Shown in pieces: positions 620-13,741 of a stretch of 42,550 bases of DNA. The stretch comes from a virus. The notes beneath the pieces are model-generated. The model saw only the letters and a program-made list of their open reading frames with translations, ran no database searches and was not told the origin of the DNA. Within the stretch, counting starts at the first letter, position 1, and every line of letters starts with the position of its first letter. The position numbers and the translations under genes are program-made. The stretch lies in IMG/VR virus record IMGVR_UViG_3300044627_002343, positions 1-42,550 of that record; one strand, given 5' to 3'.

Positions 620-870
620 GCCACCTGTGCGGTGTATTCTGAAAATTCTTGAATTCGTTCCTCTCGCATGGATCGCCACTCCTTTGCGGCGACATCCCAA
701 ACCCGAATCTGTGCCTTGTCGTACTGCATGGGATTCTTTGCAGGATGATTCTCTTTCGGAATCATGTGAAAGTTTTGAGTGCAGATCATGTGACGGATTG
801 AACCATCCGCCTTCTCAAACCGCACGAAGACCGTCTTGCCTGACTTCAGAAGTTGTCGTAGTTGACTCAT
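616..870 (-). CDS. SH3-like small phage protein (WYL_2/DUF2693-like)
   Basis: 84 residues. The order of motifs 'VFVRFEKADGSIRHMICTQN', then a 'IPKENHPAKNP' stretch, then 'RVWDVAAKEWRSMREERI', matches the small Sm/SH3-like barrel proteins (WYL_2, formerly DUF2693) common in phages. Their biochemical role is not established. The start at 870 lies exactly six bases after a TAGAAT -10 box, so the mRNA is predicted leaderless. The stop TGA is embedded in the -35 box of the next minus-strand promoter. Confidence 0.8.
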   Translation of the reverse strand: MSQLRQLLKSGKTVFVRFEKADGSIRHMICTQNFHMIPKENHPAKNPMQYDKAQIRVWDVAAKEWRSMREERIQEFSEYTAQVA

Positions 871-876
871 GGTGGT

Positions 877-905
877 ATTCTACCTTTCTTTTTTCCTCTT
901 GTCAA
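877..905 (-). promoter_or_regulatory. leaderless-type promoter
   Basis: Minus strand: TTGACA (905-900), 17-bp spacer ending in AAAGG, TAGAAT (882-877), ACCACC, then ATG at 870. No Shine-Dalgarno sequence fits. A weaker plus-strand pair, TTGTCG (853-858) and TATTCT (876-881), overlaps it and could serve the plus-strand gene at 927. Confidence 0.85.
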
Positions 906-926
906 TACATAAAGAGGGAGATTTCT

Positions 927-1172
927 ATGCCTGAATATCCGATTGTCGAAGTCATTTGGGTAGACGCTGAAGAGGTTGGTCAGGTTGGTTGGAATGACCT
1001 TGATGAAATGCTTGAGGAGGCTGCGAAGCCATGCCCAACGGTAAAATCTGTTGGTTATTTGGCATTTGTCTCTGAATCGCATATAAGCCTCATACGGGCG
1101 TTCCATTCGGAGGGCTGCTCAACCGTGGAAAAGATACCAAAACGGTTTATAGAGGATCTACGCTACCTCTAA
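927..1172 (+). CDS. conserved hypothetical small protein
   Basis: 81 residues beginning MPEYPIVEVIWVDAEEVGQ and ending FIEDLRYL. It resembles small hypothetical proteins of phages and bacteria that share a 'VEVVW..A...GDVGWNDL...' start and a 'CSTLEKIP' end. No function is known to me. GAGGGAG seven bases upstream supports the ATG at 927. The frame is open further upstream, but there it only covers the antisense of the 616-870 gene. Possible terminator hairpin at 1321-1353. Confidence 0.75.
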   Translation: MPEYPIVEVIWVDAEEVGQVGWNDLDEMLEEAAKPCPTVKSVGYLAFVSESHISLIRAFHSEGCSTVEKIPKRFIEDLRYL

Positions 1173-1320
1173 AAATTATTTGAGTGTGTCTGCGGGTGGG
1201 AAGTTTATGCCAACACCCCTCTACACTTTCCCCCACTTTGCCCCACTCTGACCCCTATACCGTCATTCTGACCACACCTGTCATTATGGCAGTAGGTGCA
1301 TATTTTATTCAAATATGCAA

Positions 1321-1353
1321 ATCATAAAGTTTCACAAAGATTTCTTTATGATT
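1321..1353 (+). terminator. putative terminator hairpin
   Basis: ATCATAAAG (1321-1329) pairs with CTTTATGAT (about 1344-1352), followed by TCTTTACTTTTTCC. It lies about 150 bases after the gene ending at 1172. The 1173-1320 stretch holds no gene that I can support. Confidence 0.5.
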
Positions 1354-1390
1354 CTTTACTTTTTCCTTGACAAGAAGCCGATATTACTGT

Positions 1391-1486
1391 TCGGCAAACA
1401 CAGGGATTCATAACCCTTCCAAGGTTGAATAGGCTGCGACGAGGTGGTATACAACCACGGTATCTTCCCTATGGGAAACCAGCCGA
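1391..1486. ncRNA. compact structured element, possible RNA
   Basis: Nested perfect stems: ATTCA/TGAAT (1406-1410/1426-1430) and GGCTG/CAGCC (1432-1436/1480-1484). The second encloses two hairpins, GTGGT/ACCAC (1444-1448/1454-1458) and TTCCC/GGGAA (1465-1469/1473-1477), giving a three-way junction. TCGGC/GCCGA (1391-1395/1482-1486) is an alternative outer stem. Identical 13-bp repeats AAAGATTTCTTTA flank it at 1336-1348 and 1507-1519. I find no clear promoter or known RNA family, and the strand is uncertain. Confidence 0.45.
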
Positions 1487-1544
1487 CTTACTCTTTACCT
1501 ATTCGTAAAGATTTCTTTACTTGTCCAAGACTCTCTCTCTCTAC

Positions 1545-1694
1545 TCACTCTTCCTCATCATCCCAATCATCATGGATGAAGATGTCGTACTCCCAATCCC
1601 CATCCTGAATGTAGTCCTCATACCCATCAGGGATGAGTTCATCAGACTGAATCTGCGTGTCGAAATGGTCGAAGTTGTTTGATTGGTTGCTCAT
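1545..1694 (-). CDS. 49-residue acidic protein
   Basis: MSNQSNNFDHFDTQ... ending in a run of D, E and W (IHDDWDDEEE). Strongly acidic and probably a soluble mimic-like or regulatory early peptide, but the function is unknown. The start at 1694 is six bases after TACAAT, with TTGACA upstream, so leaderless. It is alone in its unit. Confidence 0.7.
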   Translation of the reverse strand: MSNQSNNFDHFDTQIQSDELIPDGYEDYIQDGDWEYDIFIHDDWDDEEE

Positions 1695-1700
1695 GGTGGT

Positions 1701-1728
1701 ATTGTACCTTTGTTGGTTTTTTTGTCAA
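1701..1728 (-). promoter_or_regulatory. leaderless-type promoter (16-bp spacer)
   Basis: Minus strand: TTGACA (1728-1723), 16-bp spacer, TACAAT (1706-1701), ACCACC, ATG at 1694. Confidence 0.85.
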
Positions 1729-1738
1729 GTCTTTTTGG

Positions 1739-1858
1739 TCAGAAGATCCAACAGACGAGGAATGCAATAATGATTCCTACTGGAACACCAATAATTGTGA
1801 TCCATTCGATGTTCTTTGGATCATCACCGTCGATGAGTGGTCGATATCGTCGTGCCAT
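1739..1858 (-). CDS. 39-residue single-pass membrane protein
   Basis: MARRYRPLIDGDDPKNIEW followed by a hydrophobic helix (about residues 21-39, ITIIGVPVGIIIAFLVCWIF). The N-in topology is suggested by the basic N-terminus. No family recognised. It has its own leaderless-type promoter and an ATG six bases after TAGAAT. Confidence 0.7.
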   Translation of the reverse strand: MARRYRPLIDGDDPKNIEWITIIGVPVGIIIAFLVCWIF

Positions 1859-1864
1859 CGTGGT

Positions 1865-1893
1865 ATTCTACCTTTCCAGTTGGTTTACGTCAA
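1865..1893 (-). promoter_or_regulatory. leaderless-type promoter overlapping a stop codon
   Basis: Minus strand: TTGACG (1893-1888), 17-bp spacer, TAGAAT (1870-1865), ACCACG, ATG at 1858. The TGA stop of the upstream gene (1892-1890) is inside the -35 hexamer. Confidence 0.85.
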
Positions 1894-2342
1894 GCGACTT
1901 TCCGTGGGTATTCGTTCTTGTACGCACGAATGAGTTCGTGGAATCCGTAGGTTCCCTGCGAGCAGAAATTGTTCGCAAACTCATCCCACCACACACGCTT
2001 GTCCCCGTTGAGCGGATTCGCAATCACATCCTGCGGGATATGTCCCTTCGCCTTGCGGGAAAGCCAGTCTGCACGGGCCGCTTCAAGACTGCCAAATGAA
2101 CTGCCCATCGTCCGTCGCCAAGTGCCATCGGAGGAGAGAATCCAGTCATAGAAACGAACTTCGGTGGGATGCCAAGGGTTCGGTGTGTAGACCCGTGCGA
2201 ACTTCATGTTGTATTCCGAATTGGTTTCGATCAACGCATAGACGAGAGGCATGGCGAAATCCTCAAACGTGTGGTGCGGCATCGGGATCTCACCCGCACG
2301 GTATTGAGTGGAACGCATGGAATTGTGTTGAGTCGTTGGCAT
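1890..2342 (-). CDS. early protein of unknown function
   Basis: 150 residues, soluble. It contains an aromatic-rich segment (VRFYDWILSSDGTWRRT) and a C-terminal 'WWDEFANNFCSQGTYGFHEL' region. No family recognised. An in-frame upstream ATG exists, but the ATG at 2342 is chosen because it sits six bases after TACAAT of a TTGACC promoter. Single-gene unit. Confidence 0.75.
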   Translation of the reverse strand: MPTTQHNSMRSTQYRAGEIPMPHHTFEDFAMPLVYALIETNSEYNMKFARVYTPNPWHPTEVRFYDWILSSDGTWRRTMGSSFGSLEAARADWLSRKAKGHIPQDVIANPLNGDKRVWWDEFANNFCSQGTYGFHELIRAYKNEYPRKVA

Positions 2343-2348
2343 GGGTAC

Positions 2349-2377
2349 ATTGTACCAAAATGGTTCGTGGTGGTCAA
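2349..2377 (-). promoter_or_regulatory. leaderless-type promoter
   Basis: Minus strand: TTGACC (2377-2372), 17-bp spacer ending TTTTGG, TACAAT (2354-2349), GTACCC, ATG at 2342. Confidence 0.85.
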
Positions 2378-2382
2378 TGACT

Positions 2383-2577
2383 TTACAGCGATTCCTCAAG
2401 CCTTTCCAGTTTTTCATGGATAGACTCAAGTCGATAATAGATGTCATTTTGACTGATATTACCCTCATCAATCAAAAACATGATGTGGTCGAGGGCTTCA
2501 CGAATGCCCCAAATCTTGTCTGTAATTGATTTGTTCGTCTTTGACTTGGTTGATGTGTTTTTTGTGTTCTTTTTCAT
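2383..2577 (-). CDS. 64-residue basic/coiled-coil protein
   Basis: A lysine/threonine/serine-rich N-terminus (MKKNTKNTSTKSKTNKSI) is followed by two amphipathic helices (IREALDHIMFLIDEG and IYYRLESIHEKLERLEESL). No family recognised. Its ATG overlaps the TGA of the preceding gene (ATGA), so it is the third gene of a translationally coupled operon. Confidence 0.65.
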   Translation of the reverse strand: MKKNTKNTSTKSKTNKSITDKIWGIREALDHIMFLIDEGNISQNDIYYRLESIHEKLERLEESL

Positions 2578-2684
2578 TTTAGGTATACCACAAGGTTGAG
2601 AAGAATGAGAGTTGCCACAACCATCCACAGCAGAAACCGTGGATTCGTGTAGAACTCAAATGTTTTGTCAATGAAATCTCTCAT
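2574..2684 (-). CDS. 36-residue single-pass membrane protein
   Basis: MRDFIDKTFEFYTNPRF then a hydrophobic helix (LLWMVVATLILLNLVVYL). Joined at both ends by ATGA overlaps to the genes at 2681-2986 and 2383-2577, which strongly supports it despite its small size. Function unknown. Confidence 0.65.
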   Translation of the reverse strand: MRDFIDKTFEFYTNPRFLLWMVVATLILLNLVVYLK

Positions 2685-2986
2685 CCGTTGACTCCCAATG
2701 TCATGGTCGATGCCATGTAAATGAACCTTGCCACATCGTCAGAGGTGAGATGCCCAAGCACGTCGTTGTCGTAGTAGTTGAAACCAATGACATGAACCCA
2801 AGCATGGTTATCCGCATTCCACGCGGCACACTCTGCCGTGGTCTTGCCATCGGAGTAGTTGCAACTACCCCAACGAATCGAAACCGTGATGCGATTCTGA
2901 AACGTCATCGTGAATCCCTTGTTGTAGGTGTTGTCGATGAGATTGATGCGTGAGAGCGAATCGGAGATGGTATTGGTGTTGCTCAT
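2681..2986 (-). CDS. early protein of unknown function
   Basis: 101 residues, soluble, beginning MSNTNTISDSLSRINL. The middle looks like beta strands (NRITVSIRWGSCNYS). No family recognised. First gene of a three-gene operon. It starts six bases after TACAAT of a leaderless-type promoter and overlaps the next gene by ATGA. Confidence 0.75.
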   Translation of the reverse strand: MSNTNTISDSLSRINLIDNTYNKGFTMTFQNRITVSIRWGSCNYSDGKTTAECAAWNADNHAWVHVIGFNYYDNDVLGHLTSDDVARFIYMASTMTLGVNG

Positions 2987-2992
2987 GGTGGT

Positions 2993-3021
2993 ATTGTACC
3001 AAATTGGTTCGTGGGTGTCAA
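2993..3021 (-). promoter_or_regulatory. leaderless-type promoter overlapping a stop codon
   Basis: Minus strand: TTGACA (3021-3016), 17-bp spacer, TACAAT (2998-2993), ACCACC, ATG at 2986. The TGA stop of the gene at 3018-3437 lies inside the -35 hexamer. Confidence 0.85.
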
Positions 3022-3437
3022 CCCATATCCGTGCTACGGAAGTCCTGATTGTTTGCGTTTGCGTCGATCATCTCACAGCACTTGCGGCACGTCGTTGCCG
3101 ATTCTCCCTTGTTCGCACTCGCAATGTCCTGCGGGAGTGCATTATAGAAAACAACATTTCGAGAGTCAATGGCATCCCCGCAATGATCGCAGAAATAGTT
3201 GATTATCTCATCCTCGTTGGCGATATCCCATCCACGCTCGATTGCCACCCGTGATGCGGAGTCGATTGACCCATTGCTCGTCAACTCACAGACTTCCCAT
3301 CGTGCGGAGTTGCGTTCTTCGATCAGGTTTTCGATCTCATTTGCCGCATTGCGGAGCATATGAAGATGCCACTCTTCAAACGAGTCGATGTTCGCATTCG
3401 CAAAATCACGAAGAAACTTTGTGTTTTCGTTGCTCAT
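3018..3437 (-). CDS. zinc-ribbon early protein
   Basis: 139 residues. The N-terminal half is helical and acidic. The C-terminal half has CDHCGD and CRKC pairs about 40 residues apart, suggesting a zinc-binding domain. Start at 3437 by ATGA overlap with the upstream gene, which begins with the same residues MSNENT. That shared beginning may reflect duplication of the 5' ends. Function unknown. Confidence 0.75.
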   Translation of the reverse strand: MSNENTKFLRDFANANIDSFEEWHLHMLRNAANEIENLIEERNSARWEVCELTSNGSIDSASRVAIERGWDIANEDEIINYFCDHCGDAIDSRNVVFYNALPQDIASANKGESATTCRKCCEMIDANANNQDFRSTDMG

Positions 3438-3847
3438 TTCATTTTCCCAAAGCAGTCCCATTCCCGTTCCCGTGCGACCAAATGCGGATCGTCGTAAGAC
3501 GCATTGCAGAAATCTCGTCGTGCCGCATCACGCTCTTCCTTGAGTCGAGCAATCTCCTTGCGAAGAGTGTCGTTGTCCGCTTCGACCCCTGCAACCCACC
3601 CCGAAAGATCATCCACCATTTCGTGGAGTTCCTTTGCTTCGGCCTTGAGTTTTGCGTTCTCCTCAAAGATTTTCTGAATCTCAATCTGATACGCGGTCTG
3701 CATTGCACGAAGAACAACGATCTCGTCCGCTGCCTTTACGAGATCCATATTCGTAAGGATGTGTAGCGGAGGCTTGGTAAGCAGTCGATCCACAATGTCG
3801 AGTTCGGGGTGCTGCATTTCGGAAGCGGTGGTGTTCTCGTTGCTCAT
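3434..3847 (-). CDS. coiled-coil early protein
   Basis: 137 residues with a long heptad-like helix (about residues 45-115: EIQKIFEENAKLKAEAKELHE and ADNDTLRKEIARLKEERDAA). Probably a dimeric coiled coil. Ead/Ea22-like early phage proteins have a similar look, but I cannot assign the family. First gene of a two-gene operon from a leaderless promoter. Confidence 0.75.
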   Translation of the reverse strand: MSNENTTASEMQHPELDIVDRLLTKPPLHILTNMDLVKAADEIVVLRAMQTAYQIEIQKIFEENAKLKAEAKELHEMVDDLSGWVAGVEADNDTLRKEIARLKEERDAARRDFCNASYDDPHLVAREREWDCFGKMK

Positions 3848-3853
3848 GTGGGT

Positions 3854-3882
3854 ATTCTACCTTTGGTTGGTCGTCAGGTCAA
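3854..3882 (-). promoter_or_regulatory. leaderless-type promoter
   Basis: Minus strand: TTGACC (3882-3877), 17-bp spacer, TAGAAT (3859-3854), ACCCAC, ATG at 3847. The upstream gene's stop TGA follows directly on the -35 box, so the -35 is within coding sequence. Confidence 0.85.
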
Positions 3883-4242
3883 CACGGAATAGCCATGTTC
3901 GCTCTGAATTTCATTCACAAGATTTTGTGCATTCGCACACATCTTGTCGGTTCGTGTAAAACTCATCCCGTACAATGGCTTATTCGTGATGAGGCAATTC
4001 CACACACGCCGAATCGTCTGAATCGGGTATGATAACTTTGATGAGATCACAAGGGTATGTCCCTCGTCCCGAATCATGAAGTCATCACACATCTCGTTGT
4101 GTTCATCGAAAAATTCAACAACCGTGCCGCTGTGCGGCTTTCCATCCTGATCATGTTCGATCAGGAAAAGCATCTCACTACGCTTGGAGGCCTGATTGCT
4201 TTTGTTTGCCTCACTAACAAGAGTATAGCACTTGGTGTTCAT
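3874..4242 (-). CDS. early protein of unknown function
   Basis: 122 residues, MNTKCYTLVSEANKSNQ... No recognisable domain. It contains an acidic segment (VVEFFDEHNEMCDDFMIRDE) in the middle. It starts three bases after the stop of the gene at 4246-4578, so it is the second gene of that operon. Confidence 0.75.
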   Translation of the reverse strand: MNTKCYTLVSEANKSNQASKRSEMLFLIEHDQDGKPHSGTVVEFFDEHNEMCDDFMIRDEGHTLVISSKLSYPIQTIRRVWNCLITNKPLYGMSFTRTDKMCANAQNLVNEIQSEHGYSVLT

Positions 4243-4245
4243 TTT

Positions 4246-4578
4246 TCAACCTTTCTTCAGGAATTGTTCAACGTCACGCATGGTACGGTAGTCCTCGACC
4301 GAAAGATCGTCACGATCAATCATATCGTTGAACATTGCATGAAATCGTTCATACAGAGGCTTTTCCTCAACCTCCTGAATGTCCATCTCAATGAATCGAC
4401 ATGGAACACTTCCGAACTTGGATTTTGACCAAACTTCAGCCTCTTCAATCGGATACCCATTCTCCACCAACCAGTTGGTGATATCGTGGAAATCCATTTC
4501 ACGAAGATTTGATGGTGCTTGCTTGGGAAAGCCGTACTTCCACCCCGAAGGTGGGTCAACGAAGAGTTTGTTTGCCAT
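4246..4578 (-). CDS. conserved hypothetical phage protein
   Basis: 110 residues. The 'DPPSGWKYGFPKQAP' start followed by 'WLVENGYPIEEAEVW' and a short basic-aromatic region matches a recurrent phage/bacterial hypothetical family. No function known. First gene of a two-gene unit. ATG six bases after TAGAAT. Confidence 0.8.
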   Translation of the reverse strand: MANKLFVDPPSGWKYGFPKQAPSNLREMDFHDITNWLVENGYPIEEAEVWSKSKFGSVPCRFIEMDIQEVEEKPLYERFHAMFNDMIDRDDLSVEDYRTMRDVEQFLKKG

Positions 4579-4584
4579 GTGTGT

Positions 4585-4613
4585 ATTCTACCTTTGATGG
4601 TTGTTGAAATCAA
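4585..4613 (-). promoter_or_regulatory. leaderless-type promoter overlapping a stop codon
   Basis: Minus strand: TTGATT (4613-4608), 17-bp spacer, TAGAAT (4590-4585), ACACAC, ATG at 4578. The TGA stop of the gene at 4610-5143 is inside the -35 hexamer. Confidence 0.85.
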
Positions 4614-5143
4614 GCCAAAGTTTTGGTTTTTGGAGTTCGGTAGGTGATTCGATTGTACTCAGCACATGGTGCAAAGTGGTAGACCACATCAACAACGTCC
4701 TGTGCGTGTAGGTTGCCATCAGAGAACGTCCAACGCCATTCCTCGCCAATCTCCCCCTTGACATGAAGGAATGACTCAGGCTCAATCGTAGGGGCTACAA
4801 CGGCAAAGAGAACTTCCTCGTTGCCGATCTTGTACGATGAGTGGCTTGAATGGCGAATCTCAACGACCTCGTACTGAGAGTCGTTATCACCCAACAGGAC
4901 ATTATAACCCCATTGGGCGAAGAAGTCAACGATGTCGCGGTTGAGGATGGCCTTGCGAGCCTTTTCGGTATCAACCCACGCATACCAAACGTCCGCCTTC
5001 TTGCCACTCACCCATGATCCACCAGTACCGTTCTCAACGATGATTTCATCAGTCATCAGGTGGGTTGCGAGTTCCCAAAACTTGTCAAGATTGGCCTTGG
5101 GGATGCGAAACGATGAATTTGTGATTTCGATGTAGTAGCCCAT
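4610..5143 (-). CDS. conserved hypothetical phage protein (MGYYIEIT family)
   Basis: 177 residues. The opening MGYYIEITNSSFRIPKANLD, and near the C-terminus 'GEEWRWTFSDG', are hallmarks of a widespread phage protein family of unknown function. Upstream in-frame codons exist, but the ATG at 5143 is fixed by the promoter (six bases after TACAAT) and by the family start. Monocistronic. Confidence 0.85.
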   Translation of the reverse strand: MGYYIEITNSSFRIPKANLDKFWELATHLMTDEIIVENGTGGSWVSGKKADVWYAWVDTEKARKAILNRDIVDFFAQWGYNVLLGDNDSQYEVVEIRHSSHSSYKIGNEEVLFAVVAPTIEPESFLHVKGEIGEEWRWTFSDGNLHAQDVVDVVYHFAPCAEYNRITYRTPKTKTLA

Positions 5144-5149
5144 GTGCGT

Positions 5150-5178
5150 ATTGTACCTTTTTGGTTCGTGGCCGTCAA
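5150..5178 (-). promoter_or_regulatory. leaderless-type promoter
   Basis: Minus strand: TTGACG (5178-5173), 17-bp spacer ending AAAGG, TACAAT (5155-5150), ACGCAC, ATG at 5143. Confidence 0.85.
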
Positions 5179-5182
5179 TCAC

Positions 5183-5434
5183 TTACTCGAAAATGTCGTC
5201 CAAATAGACTTCGCATTGAAAGCGTCGTGCGAGGTCACGACCAACGAGGTCGAAATGGTTGTCGGGGTCAACCTCATCCTCATCAACCTCACAGGTGATG
5301 TTGAACCATGTGCTTTCATCAATTTGAACAACGTCGGTCGCCTCAACACCCGTCAGGATGCGGCACTCCTCCTGAAACTTGTCCATTGGGAGGGTGAGAA
5401 AGTCTGCAACGTATTGTGCGGTAAAGGTCTTCAT
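5183..5434 (-). CDS. small acidic early protein
   Basis: 83 residues, acidic, MKTFTAQYVADFLTLPMDKF... No family recognised. The ATG overlaps the stop of the gene at 5431-5679 (ATGA). A TAGAAT box six bases upstream with a poor -35 (TGGAAA) could also make it independently leaderless. Confidence 0.75.
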   Translation of the reverse strand: MKTFTAQYVADFLTLPMDKFQEECRILTGVEATDVVQIDESTWFNITCEVDEDEVDPDNHFDLVGRDLARRFQCEVYLDDIFE

Positions 5435-5679
5435 GCTGTAATTCTACACCTTTCCTCTGAAGTTTTCCAACAGTTTTTTCGTAAATATCTCCACTCATTC
5501 CTGAGTAGGGATACTGGGTAAGAGACGTTGTAGTGAAATGGCATGGTGTAACCAGTACCATTAGCATTATTTTCACCACCTTCGTTCTGTGTAACACATC
5601 CAGTACCATCCGAATGGATGGCGAAAAGGATCATGATATCACCTTGTGGTGAAAAAAGACTGTGTAGTTTGACTCCCAT
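5431..5679 (-). CDS. early protein, paralogue of the next gene
   Basis: 82 residues. Its C-terminal 'LLRNEWRYLRKNCWKT' resembles 'ELRKEWKSLRENGWQE' in the neighbouring gene at 5684-5944, so the two are probably diverged duplicates. Function unknown. First gene of a two-gene unit. ATG six bases after TAAAAT. Confidence 0.75.
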   Translation of the reverse strand: MGVKLHSLFSPQGDIMILFAIHSDGTGCVTQNEGGENNANGTGYTMPFHYNVSYPVSLLRNEWRYLRKNCWKTSEERCRITA

Positions 5680-5683
5680 GTGG

Positions 5684-5944
5684 CTATTTTACCTCAACTG
5701 GTATCTCTTGCCAACCATTTTCCCTGAGAGATTTCCATTCTTTACGAAGTTCGGTGATATCCATGTAATCACCACGAAGGTACTGCCTTCCAGTAGTACC
5801 TTGGCACATAGCAAAGAAATCCTCTCTGTCATGGTTGTAGGCCCATATTGTACCACCACGACTACCGTTTGGATAGGTATGAACCCGAAAAAGGTAATCA
5901 AATTTATGGCAAGTTTTTGACCTGATGCGAAATTGCTGAGTCAT
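5684..5944 (-). CDS. early protein, paralogue of the preceding gene
   Basis: 86 residues with the C-terminal LR-x-EW-x-x-LR-x-N-x-W motif shared with the 5431-5679 protein. Start codon overlaps the stop of the upstream gene as TAATG. Fourth gene of the operon that begins at 6811. Function unknown. Confidence 0.75.
   Translation of the reverse strand: MTQQFRIRSKTCHKFDYLFRVHTYPNGSRGGTIWAYNHDREDFFAMCQGTTGRQYLRGDYMDITELRKEWKSLRENGWQEIPVEVK
5686..5714 (-). promoter_or_regulatory. leaderless-type promoter
   Basis: Minus strand: TTGGCA (5714-5709), 17-bp spacer, TAAAAT (5691-5686), AGCCAC, ATG at 5679. The -10 box overlaps the last codons and first stop base (TAG) of the upstream gene. Confidence 0.8.
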
Positions 5945-6201
5945 TATGCCTTCTTCTTAGGCTTGGGCTTTGTCTCAAGTGCCTCAATGCGAGACAATAC
6001 CAAATCCATGTCAGAGTACATTTGGTTCACATCCTCACGAATGTGGTTGATGTCTTGCCGAAGTGCTTCCTTGTCGATGTCATTGGTCTTTGTAACCAAG
6101 TTCAGGTCAATCTTACGCACACGATTGACGCTATAGAAAAGGTATGCGGTAGCACACATTCCAACGCCAAAGAAAATTCCTGCAACGAGTTCGTAGTTCA
6201 T
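5944..6201 (-). CDS. membrane-anchored coiled-coil protein
   Basis: 85 residues: an N-terminal transmembrane helix (about residues 5-24, LVAGIFFGVGMCATAYLFYS), a helical coiled-coil body and a lysine/proline-rich tail (KPKPKKKA). Joined to its neighbours by ATGA (upstream) and TAATG (downstream) overlaps. Possibly an inner-membrane early protein; function unknown. Confidence 0.75.
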   Translation of the reverse strand: MNYELVAGIFFGVGMCATAYLFYSVNRVRKIDLNLVTKTNDIDKEALRQDINHIREDVNQMYSDMDLVLSRIEALETKPKPKKKA

Positions 6202-6575
6202 GATTGTTCCTTTTTTTGTTCTTCTGTAAAAACCTTGCCATTGCCGTCGAAGAACACGGCAGAGGCACTATGCACGGCATTACCACTCACATCGACAAAG
6301 GTTGTGGTGGTGTACGGATTATACCGTACTGGACTCCATGAGTCAATGGTTGAACAGTCAGATGTCAGCATACCAACCACACCCGCATGAACATACTTTT
6401 TGCGTTCGCGGATGACTCGCTGCCGTCCTGCCTCAGACACCTTGAACCTACAGTTGACCAAGCGAATTGAATCCGCATGGCCGATAACACGGTTGGTCTT
6501 GGTATCCTTGATCGACCAACAGCCTTTGGTGAGATTGCGGTAGATGAACACGGGGTTGGTGGTTGATGTACTCAT
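6198..6575 (-). CDS. conserved hypothetical phage protein
   Basis: 125 residues. The region 'YRNLTKGCWSIKD', followed by 'LVNCRFKVSEAGRQRVIRER' and 'KYVHAGVVG', is typical of a small protein family found in many tailed phages and of unknown function. ATG overlaps the upstream stop as TGATG. Second gene of the 6811 operon. Confidence 0.85.
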   Translation of the reverse strand: MSTSTTNPVFIYRNLTKGCWSIKDTKTNRVIGHADSIRLVNCRFKVSEAGRQRVIRERKKYVHAGVVGMLTSDCSTIDSWSPVRYNPYTTTTFVDVSGNAVHSASAVFFDGNGKVFTEEQKKEQS

Positions 6576-6811
6576 CAGTAGATCCTCAAACCAGTACGGT
6601 ATTGAATGTCTTGGCCCATGTCCTTGCGGATCGTGTCCAAACAGCCCTCGACGTAATTATCATCGACGGTGATGCGAAAGTCAATCCCATTTTTACTCTC
6701 TTTGAGAATAACTGGTTTGACACCAACCGTATCACGAACCATGTAAATGAAATCGTGAAGAGGAATCTCTGCGGGAAGATTGCCGACGAAGTAATTGAAT
6801 GAGTGGGTCAT
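6575..6811 (-). CDS. small early protein
   Basis: 78 residues, MTHSFNYFVGNLPAEIPLHD..., alpha/beta-looking. No family recognised. First gene of a four-gene chain linked by stop-start overlaps. The ATG is six bases after TAGAAT, but the -35 (CATCAC) is poor, so this promoter may be weaker or may need an activator. Confidence 0.75.
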   Translation of the reverse strand: MTHSFNYFVGNLPAEIPLHDFIYMVRDTVGVKPVILKESKNGIDFRITVDDNYVEGCLDTIRKDMGQDIQYRTGLRIY

Positions 6812-7615: not shown

Positions 7616-7621
7616 CCGCCC

Positions 7622-7842
7622 ATGTAAGTTCTATATTACATGGTTCCTCCACCAACGGAGGCAGAGGGATGCGTATTCTGTAATTTCGCATACACCCGTC
7701 AAAGTGTTCATTTTGGCTGCAAGACAGATACACTCATCATATCTGTCTAAGATTATAGGGTTATGGGTGAGTGCGAAAGTGAATATTTGCCATCGTAGAT
7801 GGTCTACCTGTATTCACGATCAACCACACAAGGTAGATGTCT
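7622..7842 (+). ncRNA. putative structured noncoding RNA
   Basis: No gene with start signals lies here, but perfect stems follow one another: 7621-7627/7636-7642 (7 bp), 7646-7650/7657-7661, 7669-7673/7687-7691, 7722-7730/7740-7748 (9 bp), 7779-7785/7811-7817 (7 bp) enclosing 7790-7794/7798-7802. Two more pairings would be pseudoknots: loop CACTCA (7731-7736) with TGAGTG (7768-7773), and TCTACC (7803-7808) with GGTAGA (7832-7837). The 3' end is uncertain; the inverted repeat at 7843-7864 may mark it. It does not match tRNA, tmRNA, RNase P or a group I intron as far as I can tell. Confidence 0.6.
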
Positions 7843-7885
7843 GATTGTACTTGACGGTACAATCGGGCTTTGGTAAGATACAAAC
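7843..7885 (+). promoter_or_regulatory. leaderless promoter inside an inverted repeat
   Basis: TTGACG (7851-7856), 17-bp spacer ending TTTGG, TAAGAT (7874-7879), ACAAAC, ATG at 7886. The -35 hexamer is exactly the loop of an 8-bp perfect inverted repeat GATTGTAC/GTACAATC (7843-7850, 7857-7864). This could be an operator or the end hairpin of the upstream RNA. Confidence 0.8.
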
Positions 7886-8119
7886 ATGGAAACACATCCA
7901 TCAAATCACTACAAACCTTTCATGGGATCGTCATTTGACATTCCAACACTTGATCAGTCCGTTCGGTTGATTGTGTGTTTGGATGACAACAACACAAGCA
8001 ATGTCACGCTGAATGTTTATTCAGCCGACAAACAAAAACACGAAATTGTAGTCAGTCGTCATGACCTGATTCGTGTTGCCGAAGCCATGAAAATTCTTGA
8101 CCCATTCAGGAACATCTAA
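7886..8119 (+). CDS. early protein of unknown function
   Basis: 77 residues, METHPSNHYKPFMGSSFDIP... with a beta-rich middle (LIVCLDDNNTSNVTLNVYSA) and a C-terminal helix. No family recognised. First gene of a small plus-strand operon. Leaderless start fixed by the promoter. Confidence 0.75.
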   Translation: METHPSNHYKPFMGSSFDIPTLDQSVRLIVCLDDNNTSNVTLNVYSADKQKHEIVVSRHDLIRVAEAMKILDPFRNI

Positions 8120-8217
8120 TGGAACTTAGCATCATCGTCACAATCTGTGTTGCCGTGATCGCCACGGTAATGGTCGCACGGTACTTCATTCACAACATTT
8201 TCGGAGACAACGATTGA
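8119..8217 (+). CDS. 32-residue membrane peptide
   Basis: MELSIIVTICVAVIATVMVARYFIHNIFGDND: one transmembrane helix and a short polar tail. Coupled upstream by TAATG and downstream by a TTGA overlap. Function unknown; one of several such micro-membrane proteins here. Confidence 0.6.
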   Translation: MELSIIVTICVAVIATVMVARYFIHNIFGDND

Positions 8218-8462
8218 GCAACAGTCAAGAAGTCTACTTCAATTACCTCAAGCCTCTCATTGGCGGCAAGATCAAGAAGATCGTTGTCGATCCTGATAAG
8301 TATGGTGATACTTACATGGGGCTGATCGTTGAGAACGGCAAGCGTACCTACGAGGTTATTGCAAATGCAGACCCCGAAGGAAATGGTGCAGGATTCCTGC
8401 AAGTCACCAAAATCTCAGACTTCACGACAAAGAAGATTGACAGCAAGGCAGTAGCGGAGTAA
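8214..8462 (+). CDS. early protein, TTG start
   Basis: 82 residues with a strand-rich pattern (KIKKIVVDPDKYGDTYMGLI, then TYEVIANADPEG), perhaps a small beta barrel. The start is a TTG overlapping the upstream TGA (TTGA), parallel to the ATGA junctions. The stop TAA forms the first half of the -10 box TAAAAT of the next gene, and the -35 TTGACA (8437-8442) is coding sequence here. Confidence 0.75.
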   Translation: MSNSQEVYFNYLKPLIGGKIKKIVVDPDKYGDTYMGLIVENGKRTYEVIANADPEGNGAGFLQVTKISDFTTKKIDSKAVAE

Positions 8463-8465
8463 AAT
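8437..8465 (+). promoter_or_regulatory. leaderless promoter inside the upstream gene's end
   Basis: TTGACA (8437-8442), 17-bp spacer, TAAAAT (8460-8465), ATGAGC, ATG at 8472. The TAA of the -10 box is the stop codon of the 8214-8462 gene. Confidence 0.85.
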
Positions 8466-8471
8466 ATGAGC

Positions 8472-8717
8472 ATGACACAGCAACTCAAAGTCCTCAAGCA
8501 CACCTACACAAACATGAATCTTGGTCGCTGCTACAATCGTGAGAACCACACGATCCTCATCGAAGGTACTCACCCCAAGGAAGTGATCGACTCGTATGGT
8601 GAGAACTATGTTCAGACTCACCAACGAGGTCAGATGAACAGTTACGATGGCTTCAAGGTGCGTGATGATGGCAACACCGAAGTCTACATTTCACATACCA
8701 TCGACAGCGGCGACTGA
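8472..8717 (+). CDS. conserved-looking early protein
   Basis: 81 residues, MTQQLKVLKHTYTNMNLG..., with 'ILIEGTHPKEVIDSYGENYV' in the middle. No family recognised. An in-frame ATG six bases earlier (8466) exists; 8472 fits the leaderless spacing shared by all other genes. The 13517 gene shows the same ATGAGC-ATG arrangement. Confidence 0.75.
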   Translation: MTQQLKVLKHTYTNMNLGRCYNRENHTILIEGTHPKEVIDSYGENYVQTHQRGQMNSYDGFKVRDDGNTEVYISHTIDSGD

Positions 8718-8719
8718 GC

Positions 8720-9017
8720 CGATCTCGACTAGACGAGTAACAAATGGGATTAGGTCTAGTGCGGGGAGGGTAATCCTCCCATTCCCCAATGGCTTTACTA
8801 TGGTGGTTTGCTTCCCCATAGTATCGTAAAATAAAAGGAATGATATCACCTTTTACTATTGGCCTTGATCTGTTATATGATCCAATCTACAGATCATTGT
8901 AATAAATAATACGCTCATGGATTGGAGGCGCAGATTCACCGTATGACTTGACTTGTTGCAACTGGTCAAGAAACAGCGGTGATATCTGTTTCTAAATATA
9001 GACAAGGAGTTTTTATT
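8720..9017 (+). ncRNA. long structured leader or noncoding RNA
   Basis: 298 bases without a gene before the ORF at 9018. Perfect stems: ACTAGAC/GTCTAGT (8728-8734/8754-8760), GGGAGG/CCTCCC (8764-8769/8775-8780), TACTATGG/CCATAGTA (8796-8803/8816-8823), and a 9-bp closing stem GATATCACC/GGTGATATC (8842-8850/8978-8986). Inside it are TGATCTGT/ACAGATCA (8866-8873/8889-8896) and CTTGAC/GTCAAG (8947-8952/8965-8970). Loop TCCAATC (8881-8887) can pair with GATTGGA (8920-8926), a pseudoknot. AATGGGA (8743-8749) can pair with TCCCATT (8777-8783), competing with the GGGAGG stem. Promoter not identified. Confidence 0.55.
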
Positions 9018-9155
9018 ATGGCACGAAATTATCGTAAGGGTAAGGGTGCAGGCCCAATCCCACACTCATCACGCGGCAAGAAGTATTTGTTGTTTTTGAA
9101 GTCTGTGAATCGAAAGCGAAATTACTCTCAGAAAGTTGATAGTAAAAACCAATAA
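9018..9155 (+). CDS. 45-residue very basic protein
   Basis: MARNYRKGKGAGPIPHSS... then RGKKYLLFLKSVNRKRNY: high in lysine and arginine, probably nucleic-acid or ribosome binding; function unknown. Supported by AAGGAG eight bases before the ATG and a strong terminator just after the stop. A GTTGATAGT repeat (9135-9143) lies inside the reading frame. Confidence 0.65.
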   Translation: MARNYRKGKGAGPIPHSSRGKKYLLFLKSVNRKRNYSQKVDSKNQ

Positions 9156-9157
9156 AA

Positions 9158-9185
9158 AAATCAGGGGGCGTAAGCCCCCTGATTT
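9158..9185. terminator. bidirectional intrinsic terminator
   Basis: AAATCAGGGGGC - GTAA - GCCCCCTGATTT: a 10-12 bp GC-rich stem with a tetraloop between the convergent genes ending at 9155 and 9185. The U-run is best on the minus strand (TTTTTTATT), so it mainly terminates the 9185-9583 gene. Confidence 0.9.
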
Positions 9186-9583
9186 CATTCATCATCCTCA
9201 ACCTCATCATCGAAGTCGTAGTCATCGACATTCACGATGATGTAGTCAGGACAATAGTCCTCACCCTCAACCCCATCCTCATCCACAGGCCATTGCATAT
9301 CGTAGATGGCCCTGTCGAGTCCATTGTCAAGCCCAAAGATTTCATTCTCGTCCATCAGTCCGCTCTCAAGGAGCATCTTGCAGAATTCTGCATCAATCTG
9401 TGCATTGTCCCGAAGTGCATCCCAAAATGAAACTAGGTCATCAGTCATGTAATCATCGAACATGAGATCGACCATCTCCATAACGTGGTTTGCGTCATCA
9501 ACCTTGTACCCATTGCTGCGCGAAAACTCATAGAAGAGTTTTCCAAGTTGGTACACGCGAGTTTCATCGGATTCGTAGTTCAT
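9185..9583 (-). CDS. acidic early protein
   Basis: 132 residues with helical N-terminal two-thirds and a very acidic C-terminus (VNVDDYDFDDEVEDDE). No family recognised. An acidic tail could mimic DNA, but that is speculation. Monocistronic, leaderless start six bases after TAAAAT, terminator directly after the stop. Confidence 0.8.
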   Translation of the reverse strand: MNYESDETRVYQLGKLFYEFSRSNGYKVDDANHVMEMVDLMFDDYMTDDLVSFWDALRDNAQIDAEFCKMLLESGLMDENEIFGLDNGLDRAIYDMQWPVDEDGVEGEDYCPDYIIVNVDDYDFDDEVEDDE

Positions 9584-9589
9584 GTGCGT

Positions 9590-9618
9590 ATTTTACCCTT
9601 TTTGGATTGAGCGGTCAA
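9590..9618 (-). promoter_or_regulatory. leaderless-type promoter
   Basis: Minus strand: TTGACC (9618-9613), 17-bp spacer, TAAAAT (9595-9590), ACGCAC, ATG at 9583. Confidence 0.85.
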
Positions 9619-9623
9619 GAAAT

Positions 9624-9651
9624 ATCCTAGTGAACTTTCGCTCACTAGGAT
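9624..9651 (-). terminator. terminator hairpin
   Basis: ATCCTAGTGA (9624-9633) and TCACTAGGAT (9642-9651) form a 10-bp perfect stem with an 8-base loop, followed on minus by ATTTCTT. It ends the 9677-9901 gene just before the next promoter. Confidence 0.75.
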
Positions 9652-9676
9652 CATTTGGCGAGTTCAAGGCTCGCTA

Positions 9677-9901
9677 TTAGTTGGCGAGGAGGATACCCCC
9701 CGTTCGGCCTCGCTTGAACTGAACGCGAGTTCCAAACACTTGGATCAGCGTCTTGCGAGCCTCAACCACGCTCATGTTTCCTGCGGATGCAAGATCCGAC
9801 AGGGTAACACGCTCATTGTTGCTGAGGCGAGTCTCAAGAAGGGATGCGATAATGTGAGTCGAGGCCGTGGCCGTCGCCGTTTGAATGGTGCTTGTGTCCA
9901 T
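9677..9901 (-). CDS. small HTH-type DNA-binding protein, paralogue 1
   Basis: 74 residues. The second half (ERVTLSDLASAGNMSVVEAR then KTLIQVFGTRVQFKRGRTGG) looks like a winged or simple helix-turn-helix with a basic RGRxGGI end. It aligns without gaps to the 74-residue protein at 13517-13741. Likely a transcription regulator of this phage. Start chosen at 9901 rather than 9907 because it sits six bases after TAAACT. Confidence 0.75.
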   Translation of the reverse strand: MDTSTIQTATATASTHIIASLLETRLSNNERVTLSDLASAGNMSVVEARKTLIQVFGTRVQFKRGRTGGILLAN

Positions 9902-9907
9902 GTGCAT

Positions 9908-9936
9908 AGTTTAGTTTCTTTTCCTTCGTGAGTCAA
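9908..9936 (-). promoter_or_regulatory. leaderless-type promoter
   Basis: Minus strand: TTGACT (9936-9931), 17-bp spacer, TAAACT (9913-9908), ATGCAC, ATG at 9901. Confidence 0.75.
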
Positions 9937-9973
9937 CACCTTTGAAGAGTTTTTCAGATTTTTTTCCATGCCA

Positions 9974-10002
9974 TTGATTTTACATGGGTGGTTTGGTATA
10001 AT
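9974..10002 (+). promoter_or_regulatory. leaderless-type promoter with extended -10
   Basis: TTGATT (9974-9979), 17-bp spacer ending TTTGG, TATAAT (9997-10002), GACCTC, ATG at 10009. TGG before TATAAT is an extended -10 element. Confidence 0.9.
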
Positions 10003-10008
10003 GACCTC

Positions 10009-12102
10009 ATGCACACGCAAACGAACAAGCAATCCAAGTCCGTTCTGTCAAGGCTTCTCGCTTCTGAGAATATCACCGTGATCCATGACAACAAGGCTCG
10101 CACAGCGTCATTCGACGTTCGCAATCGTGTTCTCACGCTTCCCGTGCTTGGTGAGATGTCCAACGAACTCTACGACATGATCGTGGGGCATGAGGTTGGT
10201 CATGCTCTTTACACTCCATATACGGAGAAGGATGAGGAGTCCATCAAGAATGGCAAGCCAATGGCAGCAGCCGTGGAAATTGGTGGTGAGGAACACGCAA
10301 ACCATGCTATGGGATACCTCAACGTGGTTGAGGATGCCCGTATCGAAAAGTTGATGAAGGAGAAGTTCGGAGGTCTTCGACGCGACTTCTACATCGGTTA
10401 CAAGGATCTTGATGAACGTGATTTCTTCGAGATTCGTGGTAAGGATGTGTCCAAGATGGGATTCATCGACCGAATCAACCTTCACTACAAGGTTGGCACA
10501 TACCGACACAACTTCATCAAGTTCTCCGATGAGGAGATGCCATTCATCGAAGAGATTGATCAGGCTCGTACCTTTGAGCAAGTCATTGCCGTGACCAAGA
10601 AAATTTGGGAATACTGCAAGGACAAGAAGCGTGACAGCCGTGAGGATGGAGAGGGTGGAAAGACCGCTGTCGGTTTTGGCAATGGTACGGGTAATGCCAC
10701 CTCTGTGAAGGGAGAGGAATCGGAAAACAAGAACAGCGAAAATCGCCTTGATGGATACAGCAATCAGGGTATTCTCCCTGATCAATGCTCGACACAGCAG
10801 ATCCTTGAGAGCCACCTTCGCAAAATGGCATCCAACACATACGATAATTATTTTTACCAAACGATTCCATCGTTGAAGAACAATGTTATCGTTGACTACA
10901 AGGGTGTGATGCGTTATTATCACGGTTACGACACTCGTCATCGTGATGCCTATGACATGGCAAACAAGGACTACCAAGAGTTTGCGAACAAGTCAAAGGC
11001 CGCTGTGAACATTCTGTGCAAGCAGTTCATGACAAAGAAAGCGGCCCGTGACAGTTTCCGTTTGTCGGTGAACAAGACAGGCGTAATTGACACGGTACGC
11101 ATGATGAACTTCCATTTCACGGATGATATCTTCATGCGTCAAACGACGATGAAGAAGGGAAAGTCTCACGGTCTTGTCTTCTTCATGGATTGGTCAGGCA
11201 GCATGGCAGTATGCCTTGAGGATACGCTGAAGCAACTCTTTCAGATTGTTCTGTTCTGCAAGCGATTGAACATTCCGTATGAGGTTTACGCTTTCACATC
11301 TCGTTTCGCAGAACTTGACAACAACAAGTCTGACTTTGAGTATCCATCAGACATGAAGGGTTCCAAGATGGGTTTCAACAACTTCAGTCTGTTGAATATT
11401 CTTTCATCACGGATGAATGGTGTTGACTTCAACACGATGATGCGAAATCTGTTTGTGCAGATCAACGGATACTCACGACGAAGCCAGTACAACTACAGCA
11501 TTCCTCCACAGATGGAGTTGTCATCAACCCCACTCAATGAGGCGGTCGTCGCCGCCATGAAGATTGTCCCCAAGTTCAAGCAGGATAACAACTTGGACAT
11601 TGTTCATACGGTGTTCCTTACTGACGGGGAAACAACTGGTTCAAGCATCTGTGGCTCATCGGCCTACATGAAGTCTTTCATCATTGTCGGCAAGAAGACG
11701 TATCAGGTGATGGAGGGTACATCATCCACCGACGCACTCTATACGGCATTCTCCGACATTACTGGATGCCGCAGCATCGGTATCTTCCTCGACTCACGCC
11801 GACGTGGTGGAATGTCGAACAACGTAACCACGCGATTTTTCAAGAACAATCAAGTACTTGAAAAGGCAAAGAGTACCTACGACAAGGAAGGTTTTGCGGT
11901 TGCAGACAAGTCATGCCACGGACATGACGAACTCTTCATCATTCAGGGAAATGCTTCGATTGAGGATGATGATCTTGACGAAATTCTTTCCGATAAGAAG
12001 TCGAACGTCGGTATTCGGAATGCGTTCATCAAGACGATGGATAAGCGTACATCATCCCGCGTCATGCTCAACCGATTCATCGACCTGATCGCGGTCGAGT
12101 AA
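10009..12102 (+). CDS. metallopeptidase-like/VWA-domain protein (CobT-like partner of AAA+)
   Basis: 697 residues. HEVGHALYTPY (residues 61-71) is an HExxH zinc-protease motif. A polar, glycine-rich linker follows around residues 220-260. The C-terminal half is a von Willebrand A domain with the MIDAS motif DWSGSM (from D394). Such proteins occur beside a MoxR/CobS-like ATPase in marine T4-like phages, and the next gene encodes one. By family knowledge, MoxR-VWA pairs act as ATP-driven chaperones or remodelers; the phage target is unknown. Start 10009 is set by the promoter; a GTG at 9988 would overlap the -10 box. Confidence 0.9.
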   Translation: MHTQTNKQSKSVLSRLLASENITVIHDNKARTASFDVRNRVLTLPVLGEMSNELYDMIVGHEVGHALYTPYTEKDEESIKNGKPMAAAVEIGGEEHANHAMGYLNVVEDARIEKLMKEKFGGLRRDFYIGYKDLDERDFFEIRGKDVSKMGFIDRINLHYKVGTYRHNFIKFSDEEMPFIEEIDQARTFEQVIAVTKKIWEYCKDKKRDSREDGEGGKTAVGFGNGTGNATSVKGEESENKNSENRLDGYSNQGILPDQCSTQQILESHLRKMASNTYDNYFYQTIPSLKNNVIVDYKGVMRYYHGYDTRHRDAYDMANKDYQEFANKSKAAVNILCKQFMTKKAARDSFRLSVNKTGVIDTVRMMNFHFTDDIFMRQTTMKKGKSHGLVFFMDWSGSMAVCLEDTLKQLFQIVLFCKRLNIPYEVYAFTSRFAELDNNKSDFEYPSDMKGSKMGFNNFSLLNILSSRMNGVDFNTMMRNLFVQINGYSRRSQYNYSIPPQMELSSTPLNEAVVAAMKIVPKFKQDNNLDIVHTVFLTDGETTGSSICGSSAYMKSFIIVGKKTYQVMEGTSSTDALYTAFSDITGCRSIGIFLDSRRRGGMSNNVTTRFFKNNQVLEKAKSTYDKEGFAVADKSCHGHDELFIIQGNASIEDDDLDEILSDKKSNVGIRNAFIKTMDKRTSSRVMLNRFIDLIAVE

Positions 12103-12128
12103 ACTTTCTCTTCTGATAAGGTTTCATA

Positions 12129-12172
12129 AAATTCACGGTAGTCTTCTTGACTTGCCGTGAATTTTTATTTTC
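12129..12172 (+). terminator. intrinsic terminator
   Basis: AAATTCACGG (12129-12138) and CCGTGAATTT (12155-12164) form a 10-bp stem followed by TTATTTTCATTTTG. It ends the VWA gene and separates it from the ATPase gene, which has its own promoter. Confidence 0.85.
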
Positions 12173-12231
12173 ATTTTGTTTGTTGGTCATACAAGTATCT
12201 ATGAAAATTTTTGGAAATCATTCCATGTGCA

Positions 12232-12260
12232 TTGATTTCTTTCATGGTCATTGATATAAT
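12232..12260 (+). promoter_or_regulatory. leaderless-type promoter
   Basis: TTGATT (12232-12237), 17-bp spacer, TATAAT (12255-12260), ATGCGT, ATG at 12267. Confidence 0.9.
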
Positions 12261-12266
12261 ATGCGT

Positions 12267-13442
12267 ATGAACCTCACCACGGAACAACAAAAATTTATCG
12301 ACAGCCTTCGCACCAACGGCATCAAGACCACCTCTGTCAGCCGTGCAGAACTTATTCGTGCGGCGAACATGATTGGCCTCTCAAATCCACCATCGTGGTG
12401 TCTTGAAAAAGATCGAAAAATCTCTCACGGTGTCTACCACATCCCTGAGATTTCTGATACAATGATTGAAACAAAGGAAAACACAATGATTGAAACTTCC
12501 ACGACAACGCTCAATATGGCATCAGCAGTCCTTGGCATGACGATGGGTGATCGCACCTCCCTCGTCCCCGACGTAAACCCTGAGTATGTCGCATGGGGTC
12601 ACTACGAGGACATTCACCGTCTTCTCTCGTCCAAGGATTTCTTCACGATCTACCTTACTGGTATGTCGGGCAACGGCAAGACAACCATGATCGAACAGAT
12701 TTGTGCGAAGTTGAAGCGAGAGTGCTACCGCGTCAACATCATCGGAACGACCGATGAGGATGATCTGATCGGTGGTATGCGTCTTGTGAATGGAAGCACC
12801 GTGTGGCAGGATGGCCCTGTTGTCGAGGCCATGAAGCGTGGTGCGGTTCTTTTGCTTGACGAGGTTGACCTTGGCACGGAGAAGATCATGTGCCTCCAAA
12901 GCGTCCTTGAGGGAAAGGGTGTGTATGTCAAGAAGCAGAATGTTTGGGTGACTCCTGCCAAGGGCTTCTGTGTGGTGGCAACGGCAAACACCAAGGGCAA
13001 GGGTTCTGACGATGGTCGATTCATCGGCACGAACGTGATGAACGAGGCATTCCTTGATCGTTTCGATTACACCTACGAACAGTCCTACGCACCGAAGAGT
13101 ACTGAGAAGAAGATCATCGTCAAGGCACTCTCCAAGTATGGAATTGACGATCACCAGTTCGCTGACAACCTTGTGACTTGGGCAGAGATGATCCGCAAGT
13201 CATTCAATGAGGGTGCGGTTGATGAGATCGTGTCTACTCGTCGTCTGCTGAACATCGTCAAGGCATACTCCGTGTTCAAGGACAAGCCAAAGTCTGTGCA
13301 GATGGCACTCGCACGATTCGATCGTGACACGCAGGACGGGTTCTATTCCCTCTACACGAAGATTGATGAGACTGTCAATCCTCCTGTGAACAAGAACACA
13401 GCACCCGCTACCGCAGTCGATCCAAATGAACCACCGTTCTGA
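12267..13442 (+). CDS. MoxR/CobS-like AAA+ ATPase
   Basis: 391 residues. Walker A GMSGNGKT (about residues 132-139) and Walker B VLLLDEVD (about residues 193-200), with the sensor region VVATANTKGKG after it, identify a MoxR/CobS-type AAA+ ATPase. Marine phage copies are often named CobS, but no cobalamin pathway is visible here. It is probably the motor for the VWA protein encoded just upstream. The N-terminal 80 residues are not AAA and may bind a partner. Start 12267 preferred over 12261 on promoter spacing. Confidence 0.9.
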   Translation: MNLTTEQQKFIDSLRTNGIKTTSVSRAELIRAANMIGLSNPPSWCLEKDRKISHGVYHIPEISDTMIETKENTMIETSTTTLNMASAVLGMTMGDRTSLVPDVNPEYVAWGHYEDIHRLLSSKDFFTIYLTGMSGNGKTTMIEQICAKLKRECYRVNIIGTTDEDDLIGGMRLVNGSTVWQDGPVVEAMKRGAVLLLDEVDLGTEKIMCLQSVLEGKGVYVKKQNVWVTPAKGFCVVATANTKGKGSDDGRFIGTNVMNEAFLDRFDYTYEQSYAPKSTEKKIIVKALSKYGIDDHQFADNLVTWAEMIRKSFNEGAVDEIVSTRRLLNIVKAYSVFKDKPKSVQMALARFDRDTQDGFYSLYTKIDETVNPPVNKNTAPATAVDPNEPPF

Positions 13443-13451
13443 GTAAACGTC

Positions 13452-13480
13452 GGGGAGGGTAAGGTGGTCTTACCCTCCCC
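13452..13480. terminator. 12-bp perfect hairpin after the ATPase gene
   Basis: GGGGAGGGTAAG (13452-13463) and CTTACCCTCCCC (13469-13480) with a 5-base loop. It would be a very strong hairpin but has no U-run; the -35 TTGACA of the next gene starts two bases later. Its first arm repeats GGGGAGGGTAA of the 8763 hairpin. Confidence 0.6.
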
Positions 13481-13481
13481 A

Positions 13482-13510
13482 TTGACAGCAAGAGAGAAAG
13501 GAAGTACAAT
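13482..13510 (+). promoter_or_regulatory. leaderless-type promoter
   Basis: TTGACA (13482-13487), 17-bp spacer, TACAAT (13505-13510), ATGAGC, ATG at 13517. The spacer contains GAAAGGAAG. Confidence 0.9.
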
Positions 13511-13516
13511 ATGAGC

Positions 13517-13741
13517 ATGAACAACAACACAGTCGTTAGTGGCAATCTCAACACAGATCAGTACAAGTCGATTTGCGTTGATGCAGAAAATCGTTTCAAT
13601 TCGGGTGAAAAGGTTACGGTTCTTTCACTCTCAAAACAGTTTGGTGTCACGACCAACGAAATGCGAAAGATTCTTGTCGATCATTTCGGATCACGGATTA
13701 CTTTCACTCGCGGTCGCAACGGAGGCATTCGCATCGTTTGA
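13517..13741 (+). CDS. small HTH-type DNA-binding protein, paralogue 2
   Basis: 74 residues. EKVTVLSLSKQFGVTTNEMR then KILVDHFGSRITFTRGRNGG: a helix-turn-helix with a basic RGRNGG end, matching the 9677-9901 protein over its length. Candidate binder of the GTTGATAGT or TGTGAC repeats that begin 28 bases after its stop. An upstream in-frame ATG (13511) is possible, but 13517 fits the leaderless spacing. Confidence 0.75.
   Translation: MNNNTVVSGNLNTDQYKSICVDAENRFNSGEKVTVLSLSKQFGVTTNEMRKILVDHFGSRITFTRGRNGGIRIV

Follow-up and report, generated by a model that had tools for sequence, protein, structure and literature searches.

Apparently leaderless early genes behind sigma70-type promoters in a fragment of an uncultivated T4-like phage

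Lambda cI, transcribed from PRM, is the classic example of a single leaderless messenger RNA (mRNA) in a phage. It is named among the leaderless mRNAs in the literature, and translation of such mRNAs was found to be enhanced by CA repeats after the AUG (PMC9031893). Larger sets are known from bacteria, in which TA-led genes show the layout described below (PMC3160421) and in which the Deinococcus -10 motif lies 6-7 bp before open reading frames (ORFs) (PMC12340547). For the Thermus phage phiYS40, most middle and late mRNAs were reported to be leaderless (Sevostyanova 2007, as summarised in PMC3594737). Here we analysed the 42.5-kb IMG/VR virus record IMGVR_UViG_3300044627_002343 (the window, 42,550 nucleotides), which by gene content is a fragment of a T4-like phage genome. 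Judged from its sequence, most transcription units in the early block of this uncultivated phage are very probably leaderless, with strong sigma70-type promoters that would start transcription on the A of the ATG.

Promoter geometry and the expected start point

At all 16 early ATGs for which the initial annotation had proposed this architecture (Table 1), a TANNNT hexamer ends exactly 6 nucleotides (nt) upstream. The spacer to the -35 hexamer, taken as at least four of six matches to TTGACA, is 17 nt everywhere except at 1694 (16 nt), which agrees with the 16-17 bp given there. When at least five -35 matches were required, the distances of 3 to 12 nt between the -10 and the ATG occurred 0, 0, 0, 14, 0, 0, 0, 0, 0 and 0 times in positions 1-13800. 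The shuffled control that had been suggested bore this out, since in 200 dinucleotide shuffles the count at distance 6 had a mean of 0.06 and a maximum of 2. Counted overall, 14-17 promoters of the TTGAC-N17-TANAAT type stand at this distance from an ATG in the region. One extra case at 5434 on the minus strand has the same layout with a weak -35. Thus, the arrangement that defines TA-led genes, TANNNT about 6-7 bp before the start codon, is present at the 16 sites and the extra ones, always at 6 nt. The layout had been called genome-wide, which is incorrect: apart from one site, it occurs only in the early region, whose GC content is 47%. In the low-GC part (13.8-42.5 kb), no distance stands out (counts of 1, 1 and 1 at distances 5, 6 and 7), and 36862 on the minus strand is the only convincing site there.

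At 8472, 9901, 12267 and 13517, an in-frame ATG that overlaps the -10 is located two codons upstream, so that gene callers choosing the longest ORF place these four starts two codons too far upstream. The motif could aid start calling in environmental phages.

Sigma70 promoters start transcription about 7 nt past the -10, which makes the A of the ATG the expected start. C occupies position -1 at 15 of 17 leaderless sites in the window, at 18 of 18 in the related genome G016 and at nine of ten in the relative G030 (42 of 45 together), giving the pyrimidine-purine initiator expected at a start point; genes led by a Shine-Dalgarno are not biased in this way. The geometry also excludes a transcribed Shine-Dalgarno, as had been claimed for these ATGs, since the GG or GGAG seen upstream sits within the promoter spacer. 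The A+C fraction of codons 2-8 is 0.73 in the window and about 0.79 in G016 and G030, compared with about 0.51 in the remainder of the same genes, and the early codons of the relatives hold A/C runs such as ATGACCACCACC. Four genes had been set apart as leadered: 144, 927 and 9018 have a Shine-Dalgarno in the sequence, and 7493 has AAGGA and, judged from its promoter, a leader of about 27 nt. The phiYS40 genome served as positive control, with 16 sites at 6 nt and 0-7 at other distances; T4 has only one. Taken together with the conservation described below, these indirect signs fit well with the proposed start on the A, which we regard as well supported.

The sites are located in a region of small genes with complete sigma70-type promoters, pointing to early genes, and it is from promoter type and gene content that we infer their early status. 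Host sigma70 RNA polymerase would begin transcription of these units at the A that opens the start codon. The resulting mRNAs would be leaderless, their 5'-terminal AUG might be recognised by 70S ribosomes, and the CA-rich first codons might assist initiation. Alternatively, a phage RNA polymerase or phage sigma factor could recognise the motif, with a start point located elsewhere; T4-like phages do encode a late sigma factor, and only part of the genome lies in the window. However, sigma70 promoters typically have the form TTGACA-N17-TATAAT, the window proteins that were scanned included no recognisable RNA polymerase, and T4-like late promoters differ in sequence (TATAAAT; PMC9004378). This is the least probable of the three alternatives that we weighed.

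Conservation in related phages

The scan of relatives that had been suggested found the layout again. The last 16 kb of G016, a syntenic relative of 146 kb with an 80% identical reductase, contain 18 such promoters, and the peak at distance 6 was also present in the early-type regions of G030 (nine sites) and G003 (five sites). The peptidase gene has the leaderless layout in the window, L002, L003 and G016 (6 nt) and in L075 (7 nt), which cluster in a midpoint-rooted peptidase tree with a support of 93/97. Three scattered relatives outside this clade share it, most remaining relatives have a Shine-Dalgarno instead, and neither is present in the two cyanophages of the tree. Clusters of TTGACA-N17-TATAAT-ACACAC-ATG also occur in more distant uncultivated phages (for example L610, L645, L622 and L632). 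Contigs picked by an N7 pattern were even so enriched for distance 6, with 23 sites compared with mostly 0-13 at other distances. No clear enrichment at 6 nt was seen, allowing one mismatch, in the cultivated phages S-SSM7, S-CAM7, HTVC008M and T4, and a sample of 94 unrelated viral stretches showed no peak at distance 6; the layout is thus not universal.

L001, an independent contig 98% identical to the window, is without the gene at about 8214-8462 (lost or never present). Its promoter before the 8472 gene differs in sequence (TTGACA-AGGAAAACGAAATGGGG-TACAAT-TCAAAC-ATG) and retains the 17-nt spacer and the 6-nt distance. Such a swapped promoter with its geometry kept is a natural experiment, as are orthologues that lack a leader in one clade and are mostly Shine-Dalgarno-led elsewhere; they make it possible to test why leaders are lost from certain mRNAs.

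Several points weigh against our interpretation. Eight minus-strand promoters are diverged copies belonging to a 43-nt repeat family (60-77% identical to the reference), and because some are diverged duplicates the 16 promoters are not fully independent. In addition, the start at any single gene may be 1-2 nt off the A, and the codon and composition figures come from a crude gene caller that, in the early region, sometimes selected antisense ORFs. The repeat family in particular would be expected if the constant spacing reflected common descent, with one promoter-start cassette copied across the region and a 6-nt distance without function. Yet the plus-strand sites and the relatives have unrelated spacers at an unchanged distance, the spacers of the copies themselves diverge while the distance and the C at -1 stay fixed, and the distance is shared by distant T4-like and by unrelated phages. 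With the replaced promoter of L001, which keeps the geometry, common descent is already largely refuted, and we consider it very unlikely.

An AUG at +1 could also be the 5'-terminal upstream AUG of a leadered mRNA, the true gene following downstream with its own Shine-Dalgarno. This arrangement does occur: the unrelated phage G017 (L368) has eight near-identical promoters with an AUG at +1, an ORF of 8-16 codons and then GGGAGTAGGAAAATG or similar ahead of the gene, for which reason it was dropped as a candidate leaderless phage. The AUG-UAA at 7622 in the window, which follows a perfect promoter, may be another such case. The leaderless ATGs of the window do not show this pattern of a short ORF followed by a Shine-Dalgarno-led gene, since they open ORFs of 39-697 codons. 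Furthermore, the alignment of the peptidase with its homologues begins at the first residues, and the longer ORFs show a low ratio of nonsynonymous to synonymous substitution (dN/dS) in the comparison with L001. An upstream AUG is a slightly poorer candidate still than common descent, and leaderless early units are the interpretation that we retain.

About 260 nt between the AUG-UAA and 7885 are apparently non-coding and nearly identical in L001; Rfam gave no match for the non-coding stretch within 7587-7885.

Two short motifs, GTTGATAGT and AGTTAT(A/C)GGACT, recur between early genes of the clade, often after terminator-like T runs and ahead of the next promoter. They were found in the window at 8, 52, 441, 534, 555, 9136, 13770-13822 and 13927, in G003 at 149-153 kb, in G016 at 3.6-4.2 kb and 133-146 kb, and in L002 and L075 directly before the peptidase gene. 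AGTTAT(A/C)GGACT is absent from T4 and present in a single copy in G012. Possibly, these motifs are operators or iterons. Positions 1-59 form an inverted repeat with perfect 20-nt arms, a 19-nt loop and AGTTGATAGT at its ends.

Codon usage and gene content of the two regions

The early region differs from the rest of the window in codon usage: TTA accounts for 0% of Leu codons compared with 33%, AGA for 4% of Arg codons compared with 53% and ATA for 6% of Ile codons compared with 29%. The same split is present in G016, G030 and G003. These three relatives encode transfer RNAs (tRNAs) that include Arg(TCT), Ile(TAT) and Lys(TTT), with Leu(TAA) in G016 and G003, and these tRNAs read the codons shunned by the early region. 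Most simply, the early genes would be adapted to the tRNAs available in the host at a stage when those of the phage have yet to be made. Early and late genes are known to differ in codon usage in roughly half of the phages examined (PMC5683454); the new part is that the split is joined to leaderless starts.

Beyond the early block, the sequence is AT-rich, with a Shine-Dalgarno in many genes and codons readable by the tRNAs that relatives encode. We tentatively propose a two-stage translation programme, possible rather than probable, in which leaderless early genes in host codons are followed by AT-rich, Shine-Dalgarno-led later genes served by phage tRNAs. The early genes would then depend neither on Shine-Dalgarno recognition nor on phage tRNAs. 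If this were true, initiation mode and codon usage would be switched together between infection stages. A host search via the ribonucleotide reductase returned mixed taxa and was uninformative.

The GC content is 0.44-0.50 across the first 13.8 kb and mostly 0.28-0.38 in the remainder, reaching 0.42 near the reductase. The step at 13.8 kb is real because L001 crosses the boundary; an assembly chimera was ruled out on this ground and since relatives have similar GC differences.

Homologues of a CobS-like ATPase, the phrog_459 peptidase, a RecA-like recombinase (UvsX/RecA), a DnaB-type/gp41-like helicase and a DNA polymerase are encoded in the window, and on these genes the phage is assigned to the T4-like phages, as a relative of the Kyanoviridae. 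ThyX and a B12-dependent ribonucleotide reductase are also encoded. The DNA polymerase ORF (35545-36672) is just 375 amino acids (aa) long, with a match to the C-terminal half of the family; the gene is likely split, its other half lying beyond the window. A 347-aa protein (28169-29212) contains a dockerin type I domain, which is unusual for a phage. A GDP-mannose 4,6-dehydratase (36911-37954) and a 2-hydroxyacid dehydrogenase (39086-40105) are likely host-derived metabolic genes.

Table 1. Early region and apparently leaderless units of the window (GC3, GC at third codon positions)
Feature	Position	Strand	Promoter and start	Product or remark
Early region	1-13800	both		GC 0.47 (rest 0.33); GC3 0.56 (rest 0.22)
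Leaderless unit	616-905	-	TTGACA-N17-TAGAAT (877-905); ATG 870	WYL_2-domain protein, 84 aa
Leaderless unit	1545-1728	-	TTGACA-N16-TACAAT-ACCACC-ATG 1694	49 aa
Leaderless unit	1739-1893	-	TTGACG-N17-TAGAAT-ACCACG-ATG 1858	39 aa
Leaderless unit	1890-2377	-	TTGACC-N17-TACAAT-GTACCC-ATG 2342	150 aa
Leaderless unit	2681-3021	-	TTGACA-N17-TACAAT-ACCACC-ATG 2986	101 aa
Leaderless unit	3434-3882	-	TTGACC-N17-TAGAAT-ACCCAC-ATG 3847	137 aa; homologue in G030
Leaderless unit	4246-4613	-	TTGATT-N17-TAGAAT-ACACAC-ATG 4578	110 aa
Leaderless unit	4610-5178	-	TTGACG-N17-TACAAT-ACGCAC-ATG 5143	177 aa; phrog_38862
Leaderless unit	5431-5714	-	TTGGCA-N17-TAAAAT-AGCCAC-ATG 5679	82 aa
Probable further unit	6575-6823	-	TAGAAT-ACCACC-ATG 6811; no recognisable -35	78 aa; in repeat family
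Start-stop promoter	7587-7624	+	TTGACA-N17-TACAAT; AUG at +1, then UAA directly	identical in L001
Leaderless unit	7851-8119	+	TTGACG-N17-TAAGAT-ACAAAC-ATG 7886	77 aa
Leaderless unit	8437-8717	+	TTGACA-N17-TAAAAT-ATGAGC-ATG 8472	81 aa
Leaderless unit	9185-9618	-	TTGACC-N17-TAAAAT-ACGCAC-ATG 9583	132 aa
Leaderless unit	9677-9936	-	TTGACT-N17-TAAACT-ATGCAC-ATG 9901	74 aa
Leaderless unit	9974-12102	+	TTGATT-N17-TATAAT-GACCTC-ATG 10009	T4-like 'peptidase' (phrog_459), 697 aa
Leaderless unit	12232-13442	+	TTGATT-N17-TATAAT-ATGCGT-ATG 12267	CobS-like AAA ATPase, 391 aa
Leaderless unit	13482-13741	+	TTGACA-N17-TACAAT-ATGAGC-ATG 13517	74 aa
Leaderless unit, low-GC part	36635-36896	-	TTGACA-N16-TATAAT-GCAGAC-ATG 36862	75 aa; upstream of DNA polymerase ORF

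Comparison with known leaderless systems

The initial annotation could name no phage that had such a uniform set. This was too strong, because phiYS40 is reported to have a uniform leaderless class, and other uncultivated phages share the layout. A search of the open-access literature turned up no account of T4-like phages whose early genes form a leaderless set. S-SSM7, S-CAM7 and the Pelagibacter phage HTVC008M share homologues of CobS, the peptidase, the helicase and the DNA polymerase with the window, and the peptidase genes of S-SSM7 and S-CAM7 are not leaderless, unlike that of the window. The window provides a clear case in which the early genes of a T4-type lineage are apparently leaderless as a rule.

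The window genes resemble the TA-led genes of Deinococcus-Thermus and Actinobacteria in that TANNNT stands 6-7 bp before the ORF and a Shine-Dalgarno is absent, an arrangement that would give a leaderless mRNA. Unlike these cellular genes, they form a phage early block with a strong -35, a near-invariant 17-nt spacer and a C at -1. Lambda cI is one leaderless gene, whereas the window contains a uniform set. The phage phiYS40 is similar to the window in its large leaderless set and its peak at 6 nt; it differs in that its leaderless class is reported to be middle and late and in not being T4-like, whereas the set in the window is early-type, has full -35/-10 promoters and is confined to one region with host codons. 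The architecture itself is known from Deinococcus, Actinobacteria and phiYS40; what is new, as far as we found, is its apparent role as the programme for early genes in a T4-like clade.

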